Source: Parasitella parasitica (lineage: Eukaryota > Mucoromycota > Mucoromycetes > Mucorales > Mucoraceae). From it: 29,062 bases of DNA. This document shows, one piece after another, positions 1 through 29,062 of the stretch; positions within the stretch are counted from its first letter, which is position 1, and each line of letters starts with the position of its first letter. The notes beneath the pieces are model-generated. The model saw only the letters and a program-made list of their open reading frames with translations, was not told where the DNA came from and did no database searches. The position numbers were made by a program, and so were the translations under genes. Location of the stretch: positions 1 to 29,062 of the forward strand of contig MU619444.1 in the NCBI GenBank assembly GCA_025201805.1, written 5' to 3'.

Positions 1-1
1 G

Positions 2-478
2 CTGCCACCCCATCTGTTGTCTTTGAAAGTCGGGTGTCCAATAATGCTTCTCAGGAATATAGATCCAGCAAGCGGATTATGCAATGGAACAAGACTTATT
101 GTTAAATCTTTACTGGGCAACATTATAGAAGCAACAATAGCAACAGGTTCTCATGTGGGAAAAGTTACATATATACCCAAGATCAAATTAATCTCCTCTG
201 AAACCGATTCTATACAATTCAAGCGCTGCCAATTTCCTGTCCGTCTTGCATTCGCTATGACTATCAACAAAGCACAAGGACAAACGCTTGAAAAAATAGG
301 CCTATACCTTCCTAATCCAGTATTCAGTCATGGCCAATTATATGTTGCTTTATCAAGAGCCAAATCCGCAAAATCAATCAAAATTCTACTTTCCTCAAAG
401 CACAGCATTATATCAAAAGAGCTTTCTAAAAATCATACAAGAAATGTAGTATATACTGAAGTGTTTCAATCTTCTTAA
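2..478 (+). CDS. Helitron-type Pif1-like helicase, C-terminal fragment (5' end outside window)
   Basis: The frame is open through the left window edge and stops at 476-478, so only about 158 C-terminal residues are visible. It begins LPPHLLSLKVGCPIMLLRN, the signature found near the end of Pif1/Helitron helicases. It continues with the helicase motif V region (FAMTINKAQGQTLEKIG) and motif VI region (LYVALSRAKSAKS). In the family this is an SF1B 5'-to-3' DNA helicase. In Helitron transposons it is fused to a HUH Rep nuclease and drives rolling-circle transposition, whereas cellular PIF1 keeps telomeres and mitochondrial DNA. The KVG.PIMLLRN form and the solitary position beside a repeat favour a Helitron over cellular PIF1, which is inference. 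The Walker A/B motifs and any Rep domain would lie outside the window. No stop or frameshift is seen in the visible part. The distance to a Helitron 3' end cannot be fixed here. Confidence 0.85.
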   Translation: MPPHLLSLKVGCPIMLLRNIDPASGLCNGTRLIVKSLLGNIIEATIATGSHVGKVTYIPKIKLISSETDSIQFKRCQFPVRLAFAMTINKAQGQTLEKIGLYLPNPVFSHGQLYVALSRAKSAKSIKILLSSKHSIISKELSKNHTRNVVYTEVFQSS

Positions 479-569
479 ATATATAAAGTAAACTGTGCTA
501 TACAAACTGGAACTTTTTTTTTATTTCGTTTGATTTAGCATTATCGAGTAGGACAGCCCGCTGCAGGCG

Positions 570-671
570 CGAGCTATGCACCCCCCAATAGAACGAAGGT
601 CGAAAAATATCACCGAAGCGAAGCGAAGGTCGATTTTTTTCACCATAGTTCGGGGGGTGTATGAAAGCTCG
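570..671. repeat. ~102 bp imperfect palindromic repeat, copy 1
   Basis: The ends are mutual inverted repeats: CGAGCTATGCACCCCCC at the left and GGGGGGTGTATGAAAGCTCG at the right. Inside are two direct repeats, CGAAGGTCGAAAAATATCACC-like from 594 and CGAAGGTCGATTTTTTTCACC-like from 625, separated by CGAAG units. The reverse complement aligns along its whole length with 28969-29060, so this is a dispersed element and not a chance hairpin. It lies about 90 bp after the helicase stop. It could be a MITE-like element, a Helitron terminal structure, or a lineage-specific interspersed repeat. No target-site duplication was recognised. Confidence 0.75.
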
Positions 672-765
672 TACCGATTGTGGTCTTACTAAATCTATAC
701 AAACCAACAATGATACTTGTTCTTGTTTGCACAATTGGACAAAACAAGATCTTTGTCCTTTTTTT

Positions 766-2436: not shown

Positions 2437-5400
2437 TTATTTAGAAGAAACATTAATCAATTGATTCACACCATCAACAACCTTTGTAGGGAAATCACGA
2501 CTACGCATTTGTTGTACAACCTCGAGAGCCTTTTCCTTATCACCATTGTCAATATAGGCCTTGGCCATAGCTTCATAAGTACTTGGTTCTTTAACTAGGT
2601 AGTCGGAATCATTCATATTTTCGAATACTTGTTCAGCCTTGTCCAGTTGCCCTTGAGCGCTGTAACCCGCAATAAATAAGTTTTCAATGTAAGGAGAGGA
2701 CTTGGTACCTTGTGCAAGCATATCCTTGTAGATAAGCTGAGCACTGTTCATATCATTGTTGTCGATGTAAGTATTCATCATTGCTTGATAGACAGTTTCA
2801 TCAGCTTGGATATCGGCTTTTTGCATTTCCTTATAGACAGCAACAGCGGATTGAACATCACGATGGAGACAACCATAGGAACGGATCAAGGTGGCATAAT
2901 GAGCAGCAGTGGGGCTATAACCATGACGCTTCTTCATCTCACTTAACAGCTTGTGTGCAGTCAGCATGTCATAAGCAGGGATATTGGCATAAGCTTCCAT
3001 GAGCAACTTGTATGTGTGCAAAGAAGGCTTCAAATTGAATTGCTTGGAGAGGTTGTAATACTCGAGGGCTTTTTCACGGTTAGGCTTTTCTTGAACATAA
3101 AATTGGATCATGCTGTTGTAAGCGCCAATACGAGGTTGATACTTGGGTGAGGATATCATCTCTTGGAAATACTGAGCAGCACGGCCTTCAGAACTGCAAC
3201 GAATACAGGCGGAAATAACAGAGGCGTAGGTGATTGAGTTGGGAACCACACCAAATTGAGCCATTTCATTGAATATACGCAGAACAGGTTCAATCTTGCG
3301 ACATTTAGCCAGTTTGGACAAGATGACATTGTACAGATAGACAGTTGGACGGATATTGTGCTTTCGAGATTCTTCGTAGATAGCAAGAGCATCAGTCGAT
3401 TCGTCAGTGGTAGAGTTGGAAGTACAAGCCAATAGAGACCCATAAGCATCGCCATCAGGGAATAAGTTAAGTTCACGAAGCTTATCATAAAAGGTCTTTG
3501 CAGAATTCAGATCACCATTACGAGCATAAGCAACCAACATAGAGTTGTAGATGGCATGATAACCACGGTTCTTGCGACCACCTTCTAGAAGACCAACAGA
3601 GTCAATTACAGTCTTGTAAATATCCTGAGCAATATCCAAGCGACCCAATTTCGTAGAGTGTTGAATCATATCACGAACAGCTTCAGGAGTAGGAATACTG
3701 CCTTGTTTAATAATCTTGTTGTCAAGAATGTCCATAGCCTCGGTATAGTTACCGCCAAGGACAGCATCTAGAGCTTTGCCAGAAAGTAAATCAGAAGCAA
3801 TATTTATCTTGGAGGATCGAACCATGTTTTTCGATCCGTTTGGATCAGTAGAAGAAGCACCGACTACATCTTCCGCCTTGGGAGCCATCTTGATTTGGTC
3901 TTCAATAGCTGGCAAATAAGGAGCAAATTCTGCCTTCCAACGAGCCTCGTATTCAGTAGCTTGATACTTTTTCATACGAGTCAATGCACGGATATAAACA
4001 GTAGCAGTAGGAGACAAATTCAAACTATGCATATCCTTGAGAAGATCAAAAGCCAGGTTACAGAATTCCTCGGGGGTGTTTGTCTTACGGAAGACCATAT
4101 CGTATATGATAACAAACGAGCGCTCATCCAAGCCCTTAGACACTCTCTGCCAGACATCAGGTGAAGACTTGGCCTCTTGATACAGGTTTAATACCGACTC
4201 GCACACATCAGGGGTTGGGTGAATGGAAAAGTTGTAAATTACTCGAAGAATTGACAAAGCATCGTCGAAATCTTTACAGTTGCGGCTTAAGTCCAAAGCT
4301 ATATTGCACACGGGTGAATTCTCGTTAAAAAAACTGCTTTTGGTGTATAATTCAATAAGAGAATTGAATGTTGTAACAGCATCCTTCATTCTATCATTGT
4401 TCACAAATGACATGACAACGCCTGCAAATAGACTGGAATCCAATTGCAATCCACGGGACGTCATAGCCTTAACAACATCAAAAGCTTGATCGGGCAGATG
4501 ATTATTAGTACAAGCAAAGGCATAATCCGCCAAATGACCATATTGCTTGGAAATGTCATGCTCCAGTAGACTATGATACACTTTGGAAGCTTTATCAAAA
4601 TCTTTACTGTGGCTATAAGCAGACAAAACCACACCATAGGTACTGGCATCGGGCTTTGGAAGTTGGTTGTCTGCTTCCAGCTTTGCAAGAATGGAGTTCA
4701 CAGTCTCCAGATTTCCATCAAAACAAGCTCTACGCATAATCTTGTTAAATGGCAAGATTGTGATCTTGACCTTATCGTTAACCATGGTATTTTCAATGAT
4801 ATCCAAAGCACCAGGGATGTCACCCGCACTGACATGAGCATACACAAGAGCATTATAAACGTAAGTACTGTCATGATAAGGAAGGAATTTCATGATGGTC
4901 TTGTACTCTTTAAAGCATTCGCGGACGGCTGCAAGATCACCAGCTGCACCAAATAAATTTATCAAGTTGGCAAAAGTCATACTGTTAGGGTTGGCATTGT
5001 GAGCACTTTCAAGGTGCTCATAAATATAAAGACCATCCTCAGTGTTTCCCTTGTGAGATAATACACGAAGCAGCGAATTATAAAGATTGATGTCAAAGGC
5101 TTGAGTGGATTTTTCATTGACAGCCTTGCTGAACAACGCCAACGCTTTTTCTACGTTCTTTTCATTTTCCAAATCACACAAATTGTCGACCGCATTTCCA
5201 GTGCGAGCAATCTGTCTCTTGAGCATACTCACCGTCTTCTGGACTTCAGTGTCTCTGTTGCAAAGAGTGCGAATAAGAAGAGCATATGTTTGGGAAGATG
5301 GACGGACACCAGTAGATATCATATCATGGTAGGCATTCATCATAGGTGTCAATGGCTGATTTATCTTGCGTAGCTTTCCATAGGCCTGAATGACAGCTTC

Positions 5401-18522: not shown

Positions 18523-20527
18523 ATGGCACAATCTAACGTATTTAATATACAGGACTACCCAGTGATTATTGGAATTGATTTTGGTAAAATATACATACTC
18601 ACAATATCAATTGTTTCCTAATAAAAACAAAATATCATAAAAAGGTACCACATTTTCTGGTTGTTCATATGCCTTTGCTCAGAACGACGAGGTGGTTGAT
18701 ATAGTCCGATGGTAAGCCTATAGGTAACAAACACATACTCTCTTATTTAACGCTGCGAGTAGGCCCAAGCAAAACAACAATGTCTATCCAAAAGTTGGTT
18801 AAAATAAGTTATAAATAGATATGTGATATTCTAAAAATTATCATCTAGACACCAACACTTAATTTCTACCAAGGCAATGGCAAAGCCATGACACAGTGGG
18901 GCAATGCTGCTCGCGTGGAAATGCAGCGCCCTACTGCTAGAAACTCAGTACTATTGAAGCAGTACAAGCTCTATTTGGATGAGAACATCGCCAAGGATTT
19001 ACCACCTCTTCCAAACGGTCTGACTATTGTTGAAGCTATCTCTGATTATCTTCGCATGTTTCATGAACATGTTGTTAATGAATTAAAAAAGGGCTTCGCA
19101 AAGAATTACGGAAAACACCAGTTTAGATACGTAAGTGTCGCGGGGGGGGTGCTTTGGAAAAACACTCCATATTGATACATTCCTTTTTCTCGGCAGTGTT
19201 TGACTGTTCCCGCCATGTGGTCTGACAAGGCAAAGAGTACTATGCGTGATGCTGCTGTTATGGCTGGCCTCATCAAAAGAGACGATCATCGTGATCGTTT
19301 GATGCTTATTTCTGAACCTGAAGCTGCAGCACTTTACTGTGAGAAAAAATGCGAGCAATTCAATCTAAAGGGCAACGATAGATTTATGATTTGTGATGCT
19401 GGTGGAGGAACCGTTGATCTGATTGTTTTTGAAATTGACGAACGCAATGGTCGTAAATTGCGTGAATGCACAAAGGGCCACGGTCAATCCTGTGGTTCTG
19501 TTTTCCTCGATCGTCGTATGCGAAAACTTTTGAAGAAGAAGTTCAAAAGCTACCTCTCCACGATTCCAGCTTCTGCCTTTGAAACTATGATGGATAGCTT
19601 TGTTGATTTGATTAAGCCTCAATTTGATGGTGTGGAAGACCAGTATATTACCCTGCCTGCTGCCATTAATTTAGAGCCTAGCACCAAACAACTCATCGAT
19701 GGACTTGAAGATGGGATGCTTTGTTTGAAAGCCAACGATTTGAAGAATGAAGTATTTGAACCTGTTATTAAGGAAGTCATCAATTTATGCGAAGAGCAGT
19801 TTCAAAAGGCTGGTGGCCTAAACGCAATTTTCCTGGTAGGTGGCTTTGGCTCTTCAAATTATCTTTTTGAAAGGGTACAAGAAGAATTTGAAGGAAGAGT
19901 AGGTTTAGTTGCAGTACCACCTCGTTGTGAGCTGGCTGTGGTCCGTGGCGCTGTTTACTTTGGTTTGAATCCTCATGTGGTCACGACTCGTATTCCTAGA
20001 TACTGGTATGGCATAGACACAACTACTACATTCGAGGAAGGTGTGGACCCACCAAGTTATAAGATTATCAGAGCTGATGGCAGTGTTCGCTGCGACAATA
20101 AATTCTCTGTTTATGTTAAAAGAGGACAGCCCCTTGGTACGTGTGTAGGGCCATAGATTGTTTTGATGTACTGATTTCATGCATCATAGATATTGACAAC
20201 TGCGTGTCAAAAGATTTTTTTGCTTATTATCCTCATCATACAACATGTACCCTTTATTCTGCTGATACTGACGAACAACCCATATATACAACAAGTCCTG
20301 GCGTCCATAAGGTTGCTAATTTTACCATTCCTATGCCAGCATTGACAGGTGTTACGGAGGGTGAAAAAGTTGATTTAACCATCAAAATGTATTTTGGTGA
20401 GGTTGAATTGAAAGTTGAAGGTATGTATTAGATAGTTTTCTTTATAAAAAATGCTGAGCTTCGTCTTTATGTAGCTGTGATCCGTGGCAAGACATATGGT
20501 ACAACTTGTACCTTCGACACTGATTAA
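18523..20527 (+). CDS. HSPA12-like Hsp70-family ATPase, seven exons
   Basis: Exons: 18523-18583, 18645-18711, 18763-18793, 18849-19130, 19197-20136, 20190-20420, 20475-20527, giving 554 residues. The three actin/Hsp70 nucleotide-binding motifs are present. Phosphate-1 is IGIDFGTTFSG (~17-26, made by joining exons 1 and 2), phosphate-2 is MICDAGGGTVDLIVF (~211-225), and the adenosine motif is IFLVGGFGSSNYLFERV (~358-374). The spacing and the SEPEAAALYC segment fit the divergent HSPA12A/B subgroup, not canonical Hsp70. The C-terminal part is short, has no EEVD end, and lacks a standard substrate-binding domain. Such proteins are multicopy in many fungi. Their clients and biological role are poorly known, so chaperone function is not assumed. 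Exon 3 is only 31 nt. A run of nine G lies in the intron after exon 4. All phases join without stops. Confidence 0.92.
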
Positions 20528-25146: not shown

Positions 25147-25509
25147 CTTACATTGTATCCTATCAAGTAGATTATTACTAGGGATTATGTTGTGTCCATA
25201 TAAAGGCTACATATATGTCATATCTAACTTAATCATAATGCACGGATCATGATATTAATTGTTGATAATTCTTTTACAAATAAGGAATAAGCTACAATTT
25301 GTAATTGGACCTCTTGCAAGGTTCCAGGCTTATTCAAAGAATACATCTAGATCAGATCGCGGGATGTCAGGAAGACTTCCTACCCAATCTTCTCTTTAAT
25401 GTAAAATAGAAAGATAGGTCTGCCCTGGAAATGCTGTGATTTAATAAGGTCTGACATTTCTTGTCAAACATCAGATGCTATGTGGATAAACATTGATTGG
25501 GATATATTT

Positions 25510-25585
25510 TAGTATAAATAGAGATCATTTCTTATGTCAATAAAAGTCTTCAGTTTTGTATCTGGTTTTATTCAGAAAAGTCTTT
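25510..25585 (+). repeat. Possible solo-LTR-like segment B
   Basis: It holds TAGTATAAATAGAG, TTTCTTAT, CAATAAAAG and TATCTGGTTTTATTC in the order seen at 24428-24500, about 1.1 kb downstream of that copy. Its TATAAATAGAG is also found at about 23301-23311. It may be a promoter plus polyadenylation module of a degenerate LTR. Base composition alone could produce part of the match, so confidence is low. Confidence 0.3.
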
Positions 25586-26752
25586 ATTACTTTATACAAA
25601 CAACATTTACATAACATTACGCTGCGCCCTTTGACACTGGCACAACAGATTAGCCTTGTAGATTAATAATCTAAATGAGGCACCATAAATTTATGTAGTT
25701 GCAAGAGGAATAAGTAGCAGATGCGGTTTCGAACTTAAAGTATCATATTTCGCTTACCTCTGGTTTTTAACTTTTTTTCCAACAATTATGAGATTTTAGA
25801 CGAGGTTTTGAATTAACTTTAAAATAATTTTACAAATCACTCTTGATAAACCTCGTAAAATAAGCAATGCAGTTGAAATACCCAATTAATTACGACTTCC
25901 TCCACAGGGAATCAAATCGTGTGGCAGTACCAAGTGACCTTGGAGTTCCACAAGCTTCTACACCTTTCAGTCATTCATGATAGTAACGCAATAAAAATCA
26001 GATTCATTATGTAATCTCCAAGGTTAGGTTTACTTTCTTTTAAGCACTGCTACAACAAGATATTTCGAACGTGGTCGTTTGTTATATAATTGTGGAGCTA
26101 AATTTATAACAAAGCTTATATCTAGCAAGGCAAAATATATTTTATATTCCTCAAATATACTGAGCACATGTTTTTGTTTTAACATGGTTTACACCTTTAA
26201 GACATGTGTCAATTGTAATGGTAATCTGAATTATATATGCTACGCCCACAATTAATTCAAATCCTAATACTCGAGAAAGAGTAACATCTGTCTATTTACA
26301 ATGAATTTTCATAAATTAAAACGAGACCACCGTCTGATATTTGCCCCATAATAAATATGTCATTGAAATGTCAATGCCGTATAACTGATTCATAGAGGCT
26401 CCATCCAATGTGATTTGAAGTGTGGATAGTTATTCAAAATATCTGGCCAAGTTGATGATAGTACTCTTTGGGGTTTCGTTTATGGCAGAAACGTGAGACG
26501 TTAACGATCATAACTTCAGCTTTAAGGCTATCTCAAGCCCAGTTGCCAAATTATTATCTTTTTAGTGTTTACTACCACTAATAAAGAAAAAGGGGGACAG
26601 TAATAATGATCATTTTGTAGCCTTCTTGGACATTGAACCCGTTTCAAAAACCGTACAAATGTTCACACTGACAAATTATATTTAATTGCACGTGGGGAGT
26701 TTTTTCCCCACACCTTTCTAATTTTTTTTATCTGTTTTTTCTGTTTTTAAGC

Positions 26753-28049: not shown

Positions 28050-28968
28050 TTTTGTATTGCACACACTCTATATATTGTCAGCAAGGGGGCGGGGGGCGGG
28101 GACAATGATCAGTTGCAAGGATTCGGATCAGGTACACATGCGGTATGATGGGATTATTAATAACCGGAAGAAGGCCCACGGCGATCGGCCTGACTGTTTC
28201 TTACAATACTATTGTTTATTGACTTGCTTCATTTGTATTGCGCGCATCTGCAGTAGATGATAAAAGTTGTAATATGAGTCATTGCTGTTAGGACAGAAAT
28301 TGTACTTGATTTTTTACATTGAAACGTATGATTTTTTCATGTTGAACAATGATAAACACTGGATGATAGACACAGACGGAAAATTAAAGGGCCGTTGTTT
28401 TTGGTGGTGTTCTTTTTCTCGACGTTTGCTTGAATTGCATCATTCATACAGATTAATGATTAAGCAGTGCTTTTTTTATTTAAAAAAAAATTATAAAACA
28501 TCTGCATTTAACGATTACGAATGACTCATCCCTGCCATATATTCTTGAAAACAAATATTTACATTGGAAATGTTTAACCGCTGTATATTTAAAACAGATT
28601 TTCGGTAATATTAGATTTTCCCAAAAAATATATAGTTTCAAAAACCGTGTCGGTTACACCTGGAAAAGTCATTCGGCTATCAAAAGGAAATGAAAAATCA
28701 ACATGCGAAAAAAAAATTTTTTTGCATGAATTTAACCAAAGGAAAAAACAAAAAAAAAAAAAGAAGAAAAAGAGCATTTTAGAAGCATCTAAAAAATGCA
28801 TGTCATTGTGAAATCTGGGGTTGCGTTTGTGTGGAGGAAATGAAACATATGCCATGATAACAGTAAAGAGGGTTGTGCAAAACGAAGGCCGATTTCGCCG
28901 TATTTTTGAAGTAGCATGCAACAGAATTTATCCGCGCTTTATAAATTTACAAAATTTTAGACATATGA
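28050..28968. other. Intergenic region downstream of PEX10
   Basis: About 0.9 kb. A G-rich run (three G blocks at 28085-28101) lies just after the PEX10 stop. An A-rich, purine-only stretch is present near 28740-28772. Reading frames at 28282-28524 and on the minus strand at 28589-28921 show no family features; the latter reads through the A-run as poly-Phe. At 28885 an AACGAAGGCCGATTT motif resembles part of the neighbouring palindromic repeat. Confidence 0.4.
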
Positions 28969-29060
28969 CGAGCTGGTCACCCCGCCCACTCTGGTGATTT
29001 TTGCACCTTCGCTACGCTACGGTAAAAATCGACCTTCGTTTACGCGGGGTCCATCTCGCT
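28969..29060. repeat. ~92 bp imperfect palindromic repeat, copy 2 (inverted relative to copy 1)
   Basis: It begins CGAGCTGGTCACCCCGC and ends GCGGGGTCCATCTCGCT, which are imperfect inverted repeats. The centre reads CACCTTCGCTACGCTACGG followed by TAAAAATCGACCTTCG. The reverse complement of 570-671 aligns throughout, including the CACCCC block, the GGTGA block, the tandem CTTCGCT units, the second CGACCTTCG, and the GGGGT end. The GC-rich ends stand out from the AT-rich surroundings. The window ends two bases after the element, so its right flank and any target duplication cannot be examined. Confidence 0.75.
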
Positions 29061-29062
29061 CT

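Follow-up and report, generated by a model that had tools for sequence, protein, structure and literature searches.

The DNA analysed here, referred to as the window, is a stretch of 29,062 nucleotides and constitutes one complete contig (C206) of a source assembly of 30.7 Mb in 232 contigs. On the reading argued for below, its two ends carry parts of Helitrons of two families, A and B, and the features concerned are as follows:

1-671, plus strand: 3' part of an A-family Helitron, cut by the contig start; a helicase C-terminus is followed by the terminal hairpin, and other A copies share the last ~160 bp and parts of the interior
17-478, plus strand: C-terminal part of a Helitron helicase ORF, open at the contig start (Pfam Pif1_2B_dom, E 2.4e-14; 60% identity to the intact ORF on contig C12)
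547-569, plus strand: conserved inner tag adjoining the hairpin; in the alignments it is found in A copies borne by Helitrons and is missing from solo hairpins
570-671, plus strand: A-family 3'-terminal palindrome, ending in CTCG at 671 and followed by T at 672 (boundary from copy comparison; fold z -6.1)
672-686, plus strand: host target flank 3' of the A Helitron end, first base T; copies diverge from here
25482-25556, minus strand: paralogous empty site, identified by flank match, for the solo hairpin L059, in an unrelated dispersed repeat; no hairpin and one target copy
28969-29058, minus strand: B-family 3'-terminal palindrome, terminus at 28969, with a host A at 28968 that is T on the minus strand (copy comparison and fold)
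29059-29062, minus strand: first four bases of the B Helitron interior, cut by the contig end (identical 95-bp overlap with C12)

A first-pass annotation had described the two palindromes as related elements in inverted orientation that match from end to end. This was borne out: when 570-671 is reverse-complemented and globally aligned with 28969-29062, the alignment extends over the full length (score 69, without a shuffle control). The best local alignment, a segment of about 60 columns comprising the core and one arm, scored 42; the highest value among 1000 single-base shuffles was 24, which rules out chance similarity. Each element is also itself a palindrome, as claimed, and forms one long hairpin; folded as single-stranded DNA, 570-671 reached -24.9 kcal/mol and 29058-28969 reached -21.6 kcal/mol (z -4.4), and none of 200 shuffles was as stable in either case. 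The right-hand element had been placed at 28969-29060; its start stands, and the palindrome terminates at 29058, with bases 29059-29062 (CTCT) matching Helitron interior. The pair is not confined to the window, as there are far more than two copies in the source genome (at least 37 matches for the right palindrome and at least 32 match rows for the left). The description as related holds for the common core and arm ends; the left and right palindromes are different families and not copies of one element.

It is nearly certain that each palindrome forms the final ~90-110 nt of a Helitron encoding a RepHel protein, in agreement with the earlier suggestion of a Helitron end structure. Copies fetched with their flanks have a sharp outer boundary at GCTCG followed by T and a conserved interior on the other side. 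The A interior leads to the helicase C-terminus inside the window (17-478, Pif1_2B domain). The B family is represented on C12 by an intact Helitron of 5,450 bp with a single 1,626-aa Rep/helicase ORF, in which the domains Helitron_like_N (E 9e-61), PIF1 (E 1.5e-69) and Pif1_2B and the motifs PHAH (at 656), KYVYKYVYKG (at 796) and GPGGTGKT (at 1159) were found. We take PHAH to be a HUH-type motif and, together with KYVYKYVYKG, to mark a HUH/two-tyrosine Rep; the ORF thus has the composition that defines Helitrons, one protein with a HUH/two-tyrosine Rep and a PIF1-like helicase. The 5' end of the C12 element is A followed by TCTTATATAATAAAATAATGG (type A-TC), and B-family 5' ends read TCTTATAYAATAAAATAATGG at L066, L014 and L035 and CCCTTATA at L060. 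The TC is preceded by A at three of the four B-family 5' ends seen; no 5' ends were found for A, D and E.

The last 95 bases of the window contig are identical to the last 95 of C61 and the first 95 of C12, an overlap from which we infer that a short-read assembler left a junction common to two insertion sites. Judging from the overlap with the start of the intact C12 element, the right-hand copy probably runs on into a Helitron past the contig end. The contig therefore stops inside a Helitron at each side, with the 3' ends facing inwards, hence the inverted pair near both ends; the placement of the palindromes looks like an assembly effect. Several contigs (C61, C12, C206 and C210) start or stop in an A or B hairpin, and the terminal palindromes appear to break the assembly.

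The closest named fungal relatives of a Helitron protein from the source assembly are those of M. plumbeus (60%) and M. hiemalis (57%), and two proteins named from a pseudoscorpion outscore these Mucor relatives at 45%. On the strength of these protein relatives, a Mucorales origin of the contig is likely. Searches of viral contigs with the C12 ORF and with an alignment of 15 proteins found no relatives, and an exact 16-base core pattern matched eight viral contigs that are apparently unrelated.

With a 153-aa helicase fragment as query, 94 matching stretches were found in the genome, and with the Rep family 17. The 3' ends were read at 18 further places, of which eight are palindromic, three carry CTAG followed by T and seven have no recognisable end:

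Family D (L069-L072, L074 and L075, the end of L075 being damaged): palindromic 3' end
Family E (L073, L077): palindromic 3' end
Family F (L078, L079): classical end, CTAG followed by T
Family G (L086, plus L067 and L068): classical end, CTAG followed by T
L076 and L080-L085: no recognisable 3' end

Three family D copies (L070-L072) are 99.7-100% identical to L069 over the last ~619 bp and the four lie in different flanks; the family was therefore recently active. Family G appears to be a second autonomous-looking Helitron family, with L067 and L068 being 99.3% identical over 4.85 kb and having open frames of 1481 and 1136 aa with a Rep match. Within family A, L042 (2767-3117) and L044 (1295-1646) are 98.9% identical in a 351-bp BLAST alignment, and this shared stretch ends with the A terminal hairpin, at 3103 and 1632, respectively.

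The reference copies of A, B, D and E all terminate in CTCG with T next, not in CTRR, and their palindromes of ~90-110 nt have a stem that includes the very last bases, without a spacing of 10-12 nt. The apex is GCGAAGC or GCGTAGC in the A, B and D reference copies; GNA loops of this type make unusually stable DNA hairpins. By comparison, the terminal 127 nt of a G copy are no more stable when folded than shuffled sequence (z -0.85). In a fold survey of 85 palindromes (84 of the main table and L100), the median z was -3.25 for A (n=28), -3.3 for D (n=16), -3.5 for E (n=3) and -1.3 for B (n=37), with -1.9 for L100. A z below -2 was obtained for 40 of the 85 palindromes overall and for nine of the 37 B copies; many copies, those of B above all, have therefore decayed. 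When the mixed-family alignment was folded to a consensus, covariation lent the structure no support (double changes in 3 of 15 pairs, covariation term +0.25), perhaps due to misalignment by indels in the arms.

The comparison with Helitron 3' ends called for by the first-pass annotation thus gave a divided answer, a 3' hairpin and a T after the end being shared and the CTCG terminus and terminal stem not. Canonical Helitron1 elements such as Helraiser (PMC4778049) likewise have a RepHel protein, a 5' TC, A-T insertion and a 3' hairpin; the Helraiser hairpin, however, is 19 bp, lies 11 nt upstream of the end, acts as a terminator and precedes a CTAG/CTRR terminus. The 3' hallmarks of Helitron1 are given in PMC5148889 as CTRR and a hairpin 10-12 nt upstream. 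Families A, B, D and E are accordingly Helitrons by protein and A-T insertion, and non-canonical by both 3' hallmarks; Helitron finders that demand CTRR would likely miss them. HELPO1 and HELPO2 of Pleurotus are also fungal Helitrons, and the CTTG of HELPO2 indicates that non-CTRR ends are tolerated, but their hairpin is subterminal, and the text available of PMC4289320 describes neither a complete terminal palindrome nor solo ends. Non-canonical fungal ends with hairpins are further known in Helitron2, FoHeli and Helentrons (PMC5148889), which differ in having asymmetric terminal inverted repeats. In the B element, a comparison of the 5' 60 nt with the 3' 200 nt detected no such repeats (score 15; 300 shuffles averaged 16.1), and no Helentron-type endonuclease family was found at E<=0.001 in the C12 ORF.

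Target preference was read from the flanks. In 73 of the 85 palindromes in the table, the end could be recognised and the flank read; four of the 73 are solo hairpins (also followed by T), leaving 69 non-solo copies. T directly follows the outer end in 67 of the 69, and the insertion preference between A and T that had been anticipated is therefore evident. The motif T-N5-9-TAAA lies 3' of the terminus in 36 of the 69; the background frequencies are 4.6% of T positions within the window and 483 of 9765 T positions in neighbouring DNA. This contrast is descriptive, because the motif was picked after inspecting these flanks. The B 5' end, TCTTATAYAATAAAA, is laid out alike, and the target downstream of the 3' end therefore resembles the element's own 5' end. 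For two of the four B 5' ends, at L035 (1498-1501) and L060 (1588-1594), the 3' end of another Helitron lies just 2-5 bp upstream, which suggests insertion hot spots or tandem events.

Some palindromes stand without a Helitron. A solo hairpin was defined as a palindrome with no Helitron interior on its inner side and with both flanks readable. Solos are few: eight were obtained, five among the 85 palindromes (L059, L005, L065, L062 and L049) and three from pattern searches (L100, L098 and L097), L098 being an 18-bp remnant. Their ends are the arm ends CGAG...CTCG with point changes (L065 starts with GGAG and L100 ends with CTTG). Only five of the eight have a clear, anchored target duplication, of 6-12 bp, with T as the first base and A as the last except in the left copy of L100:

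L059: TTTAATA, 7 of 7 positions alike
L005: TAGTAATATA/TAGTCATATA, 9 of 10
L065: TCTTAA, 6 of 6
L100: TACATTTGGAAG/TACATTTGGAAA, 11 of 12; last base G in the left copy and A in the right copy
L098: TTATTTA, 7 of 7

Possible duplications only are present at L062 (gapped, of 13-14) and L049 (5 of 6), and L097, whose outer end is altered, has none. In the AT-rich DNA of these loci, the background probability of so high a duplication score is 0.0025 per pair, and none of 73,599 flank derangements of the eight solos reached the observed sum. The right junction obeys the T rule in seven of the eight solos, and the TAAA target motif is present in four of the six with a duplication when the gapped L062 is counted, L100 and L098 being without it. 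The base preceding the hairpin is A in all five solos from plain DNA searches, in which that base was not part of the query (L059, L005, L065, L062, L049); L098 and L097 were found with a pattern starting with A, which mildly favours duplications ending in A.

For L059, an empty site could be identified. When the hairpin and one TTTAATA are removed, the flanks align, with one single-base gap, to a dispersed repeat at window 25482-25556 (minus strand), L022 and L024. The scores with one and with both target copies were 130/123, 126/119 and 118/111, the two-copy version being lower in all three. The repeat itself occupies 25345-25647 of the window and occurs also at L022, L024, L067 and L059.

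Further searches added little: a pattern with 14 fixed bases gave 22 rows, equal to 11 places on both strands (one solo, L059; eight D-family; two apparently unrelated, on C27 and C122), with 10 rows for the reversed control; another pattern was no better than its control (90 vs 90 rows), and one further search for solos yielded no new one. Left out of the solo count were L061 (outer flank unreadable), L045, L051, L002 and the right-hand window copy (inner side unreadable or cut by a contig end), L099 (no outer arm), truncated palindromes such as L053, L057, L091, L092, L022, L025, L031, L032 and L033, pattern matches that the inner tag shows to be Helitron-borne (L101, L102, L103, L107), L104 and L106 (truncated or unclear) and L105 and L108 (no palindrome).

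The solo hairpins are likely mobile insertions. The target duplications looked for at the palindromes are clear at the solos and only there: none of the Helitron-borne copies in the table has a comparable duplication score, a weak control in that their left side is element interior, and no duplication was seen by eye in the one full element with both flanks readable (C81). With a single such element, the contrast between Helitrons and solos leans mostly on the literature, in which Helitrons are described as inserting without target duplication and the Helraiser 5' end as essential (PMC4778049, PMC5148889). The proposal of an active or recently active non-autonomous element accordingly applies to the solo hairpins with target duplications, and the window copies belong to RepHel Helitrons. 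No report of full terminal palindromes ending in CTCG, or of solo Helitron hairpins with duplications, was found in the literature as accessible, where subscription journals are poorly covered.

The reading that we favour, with a probability of about 0.7, is that the palindromes represent the 3'-terminal hairpins of Helitrons from two families, truncated at the contig ends, and that the hairpin unit likely also moves alone, probably by means of the Helitron Rep/helicase. The variable length of the solo duplications (6, 7, 7, 10 and 12) and the low copy number would also be expected if the solos were Helitron by-products, namely excised single-stranded hairpins captured as filler in staggered-break repair, the duplications then arising from fill-in and ligation and not from Rep; the altered outer end of L097, without duplication, points the same way. 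We consider this unlikely, as both termini of the five clear solos are those expected of the arms (with the L065 and L100 variants given above), without trimming or filler, and the solos follow the Helitron T rule and TAAA preference in the proportions reported. The same duplication lengths bear on a less probable explanation, an independent foldback or MITE-like element with its own enzyme that Helitrons captured as a 3' end. MITE duplications usually have one fixed length, which the solos do not show, and the solo target preference is that of Helitron 3' ends and of the 5' end, although the duplications as such resemble those of DNA transposons and one 3' module is found on different helicase lineages. 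Retrocopies from target-primed reverse transcription, which would agree with variable duplications and an AT-rich target, are disfavoured and very improbable: there is no A tail, the right junction follows the Helitron T rule, and the duplications begin with T, with TAAA, where present, inside or behind them. That the hairpins are host repeats with a regulatory or chromatin role, or virus-like ends that integrate, and that the Helitron link is incidental, can practically be dismissed despite the GC-rich structures and the frequent role of palindromes as binding sites, because Helitron-borne copies adjoin RepHel coding sequence or Helitron interior and end at the insertion boundary; the regulatory or chromatin repeat, of which no evidence emerged, was set aside since most table copies carry Helitron interior.

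For a Helitron hairpin that also moves alone, a mechanism can be proposed. In the full element, by analogy with Helraiser, the hairpin would serve as terminator and as 3' recognition site for the Rep nuclease. A complete palindrome would present a Helitron-type CTCG 3' end on both strands of the hairpin; Rep could then join each CTCG end to a T, the two T's lying on opposite strands of the target at a distance of a few bases, and a T...A duplication of variable length would result once the gaps were filled. The chances that Helitron Rep drives solo movement by such paired 3'-end joining are, in our estimate, about even.

The modularity of the hairpin may also have allowed Helitron lineages to exchange the 3' end of ~160 bp. 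The 3' ends of the window A copy and of the A copy at L043 are alike at 144 of 159 aligned positions (91%) and the helicase parts at 285 of 430, and the two helicases are not grouped together in a tree of 35 rows with eight well-supported inner branches, which was used only for the window/L063 pair, the B group and the D+E group. Of 86 copies examined, four (L073, L077, L089 and L100) have a hairpin centre inverted with respect to the arms, 69 have it in the usual orientation and 13 lack it. Inverted centres fit a hairpin intermediate, and inversion by recombination would do likewise; they resemble the flip/flop isomers of viral terminal hairpins. Taken together, these observations allow a tentative picture, to which we give somewhat less than an even chance, of a transposon end turned transposon: a palindrome with a Helitron 3' end on each strand would be inserted double-stranded by paired transfers onto staggered T's, leaving variable duplications, free hairpins would seed new 3' ends on other Helitrons, and the four inverted centres would be the flip-flop trace of a hairpin intermediate.

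If true, solo movement of a 3' hairpin with target duplications would be a type of transposition new for eukaryotic HUH nucleases and a simple source of new 3' ends on Helitrons. In its logic, such a hairpin would also be the eukaryotic equivalent of bacterial REP palindromes, for which, to our knowledge, target duplications are not known. In the REP/RAYT system, as outlined in PMC2817692, a short palindrome is likewise proposed to owe its mobility to the tyrosine transposase that a related larger unit encodes, but the bacterial enzymes are related to IS200/IS605 and no homology is claimed. The mobile palindromes of mitochondria, for example double-hairpin elements, also found in fungi, are similarly short and scattered as apparent mobile units; they are organellar, whereas the hairpins described here are nuclear and tied to a Helitron. 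We know of no enzyme identified for the mitochondrial elements. A paralogous target, an intact ORF and a tiny substrate make solo movement directly testable.

Away from the Helitron ends, the window contains at 19200-20156 a partial Hsp70-like ORF (PF00012, E 1.1e-6), which may represent a single exon of a divergent gene of the Hsp70 family.
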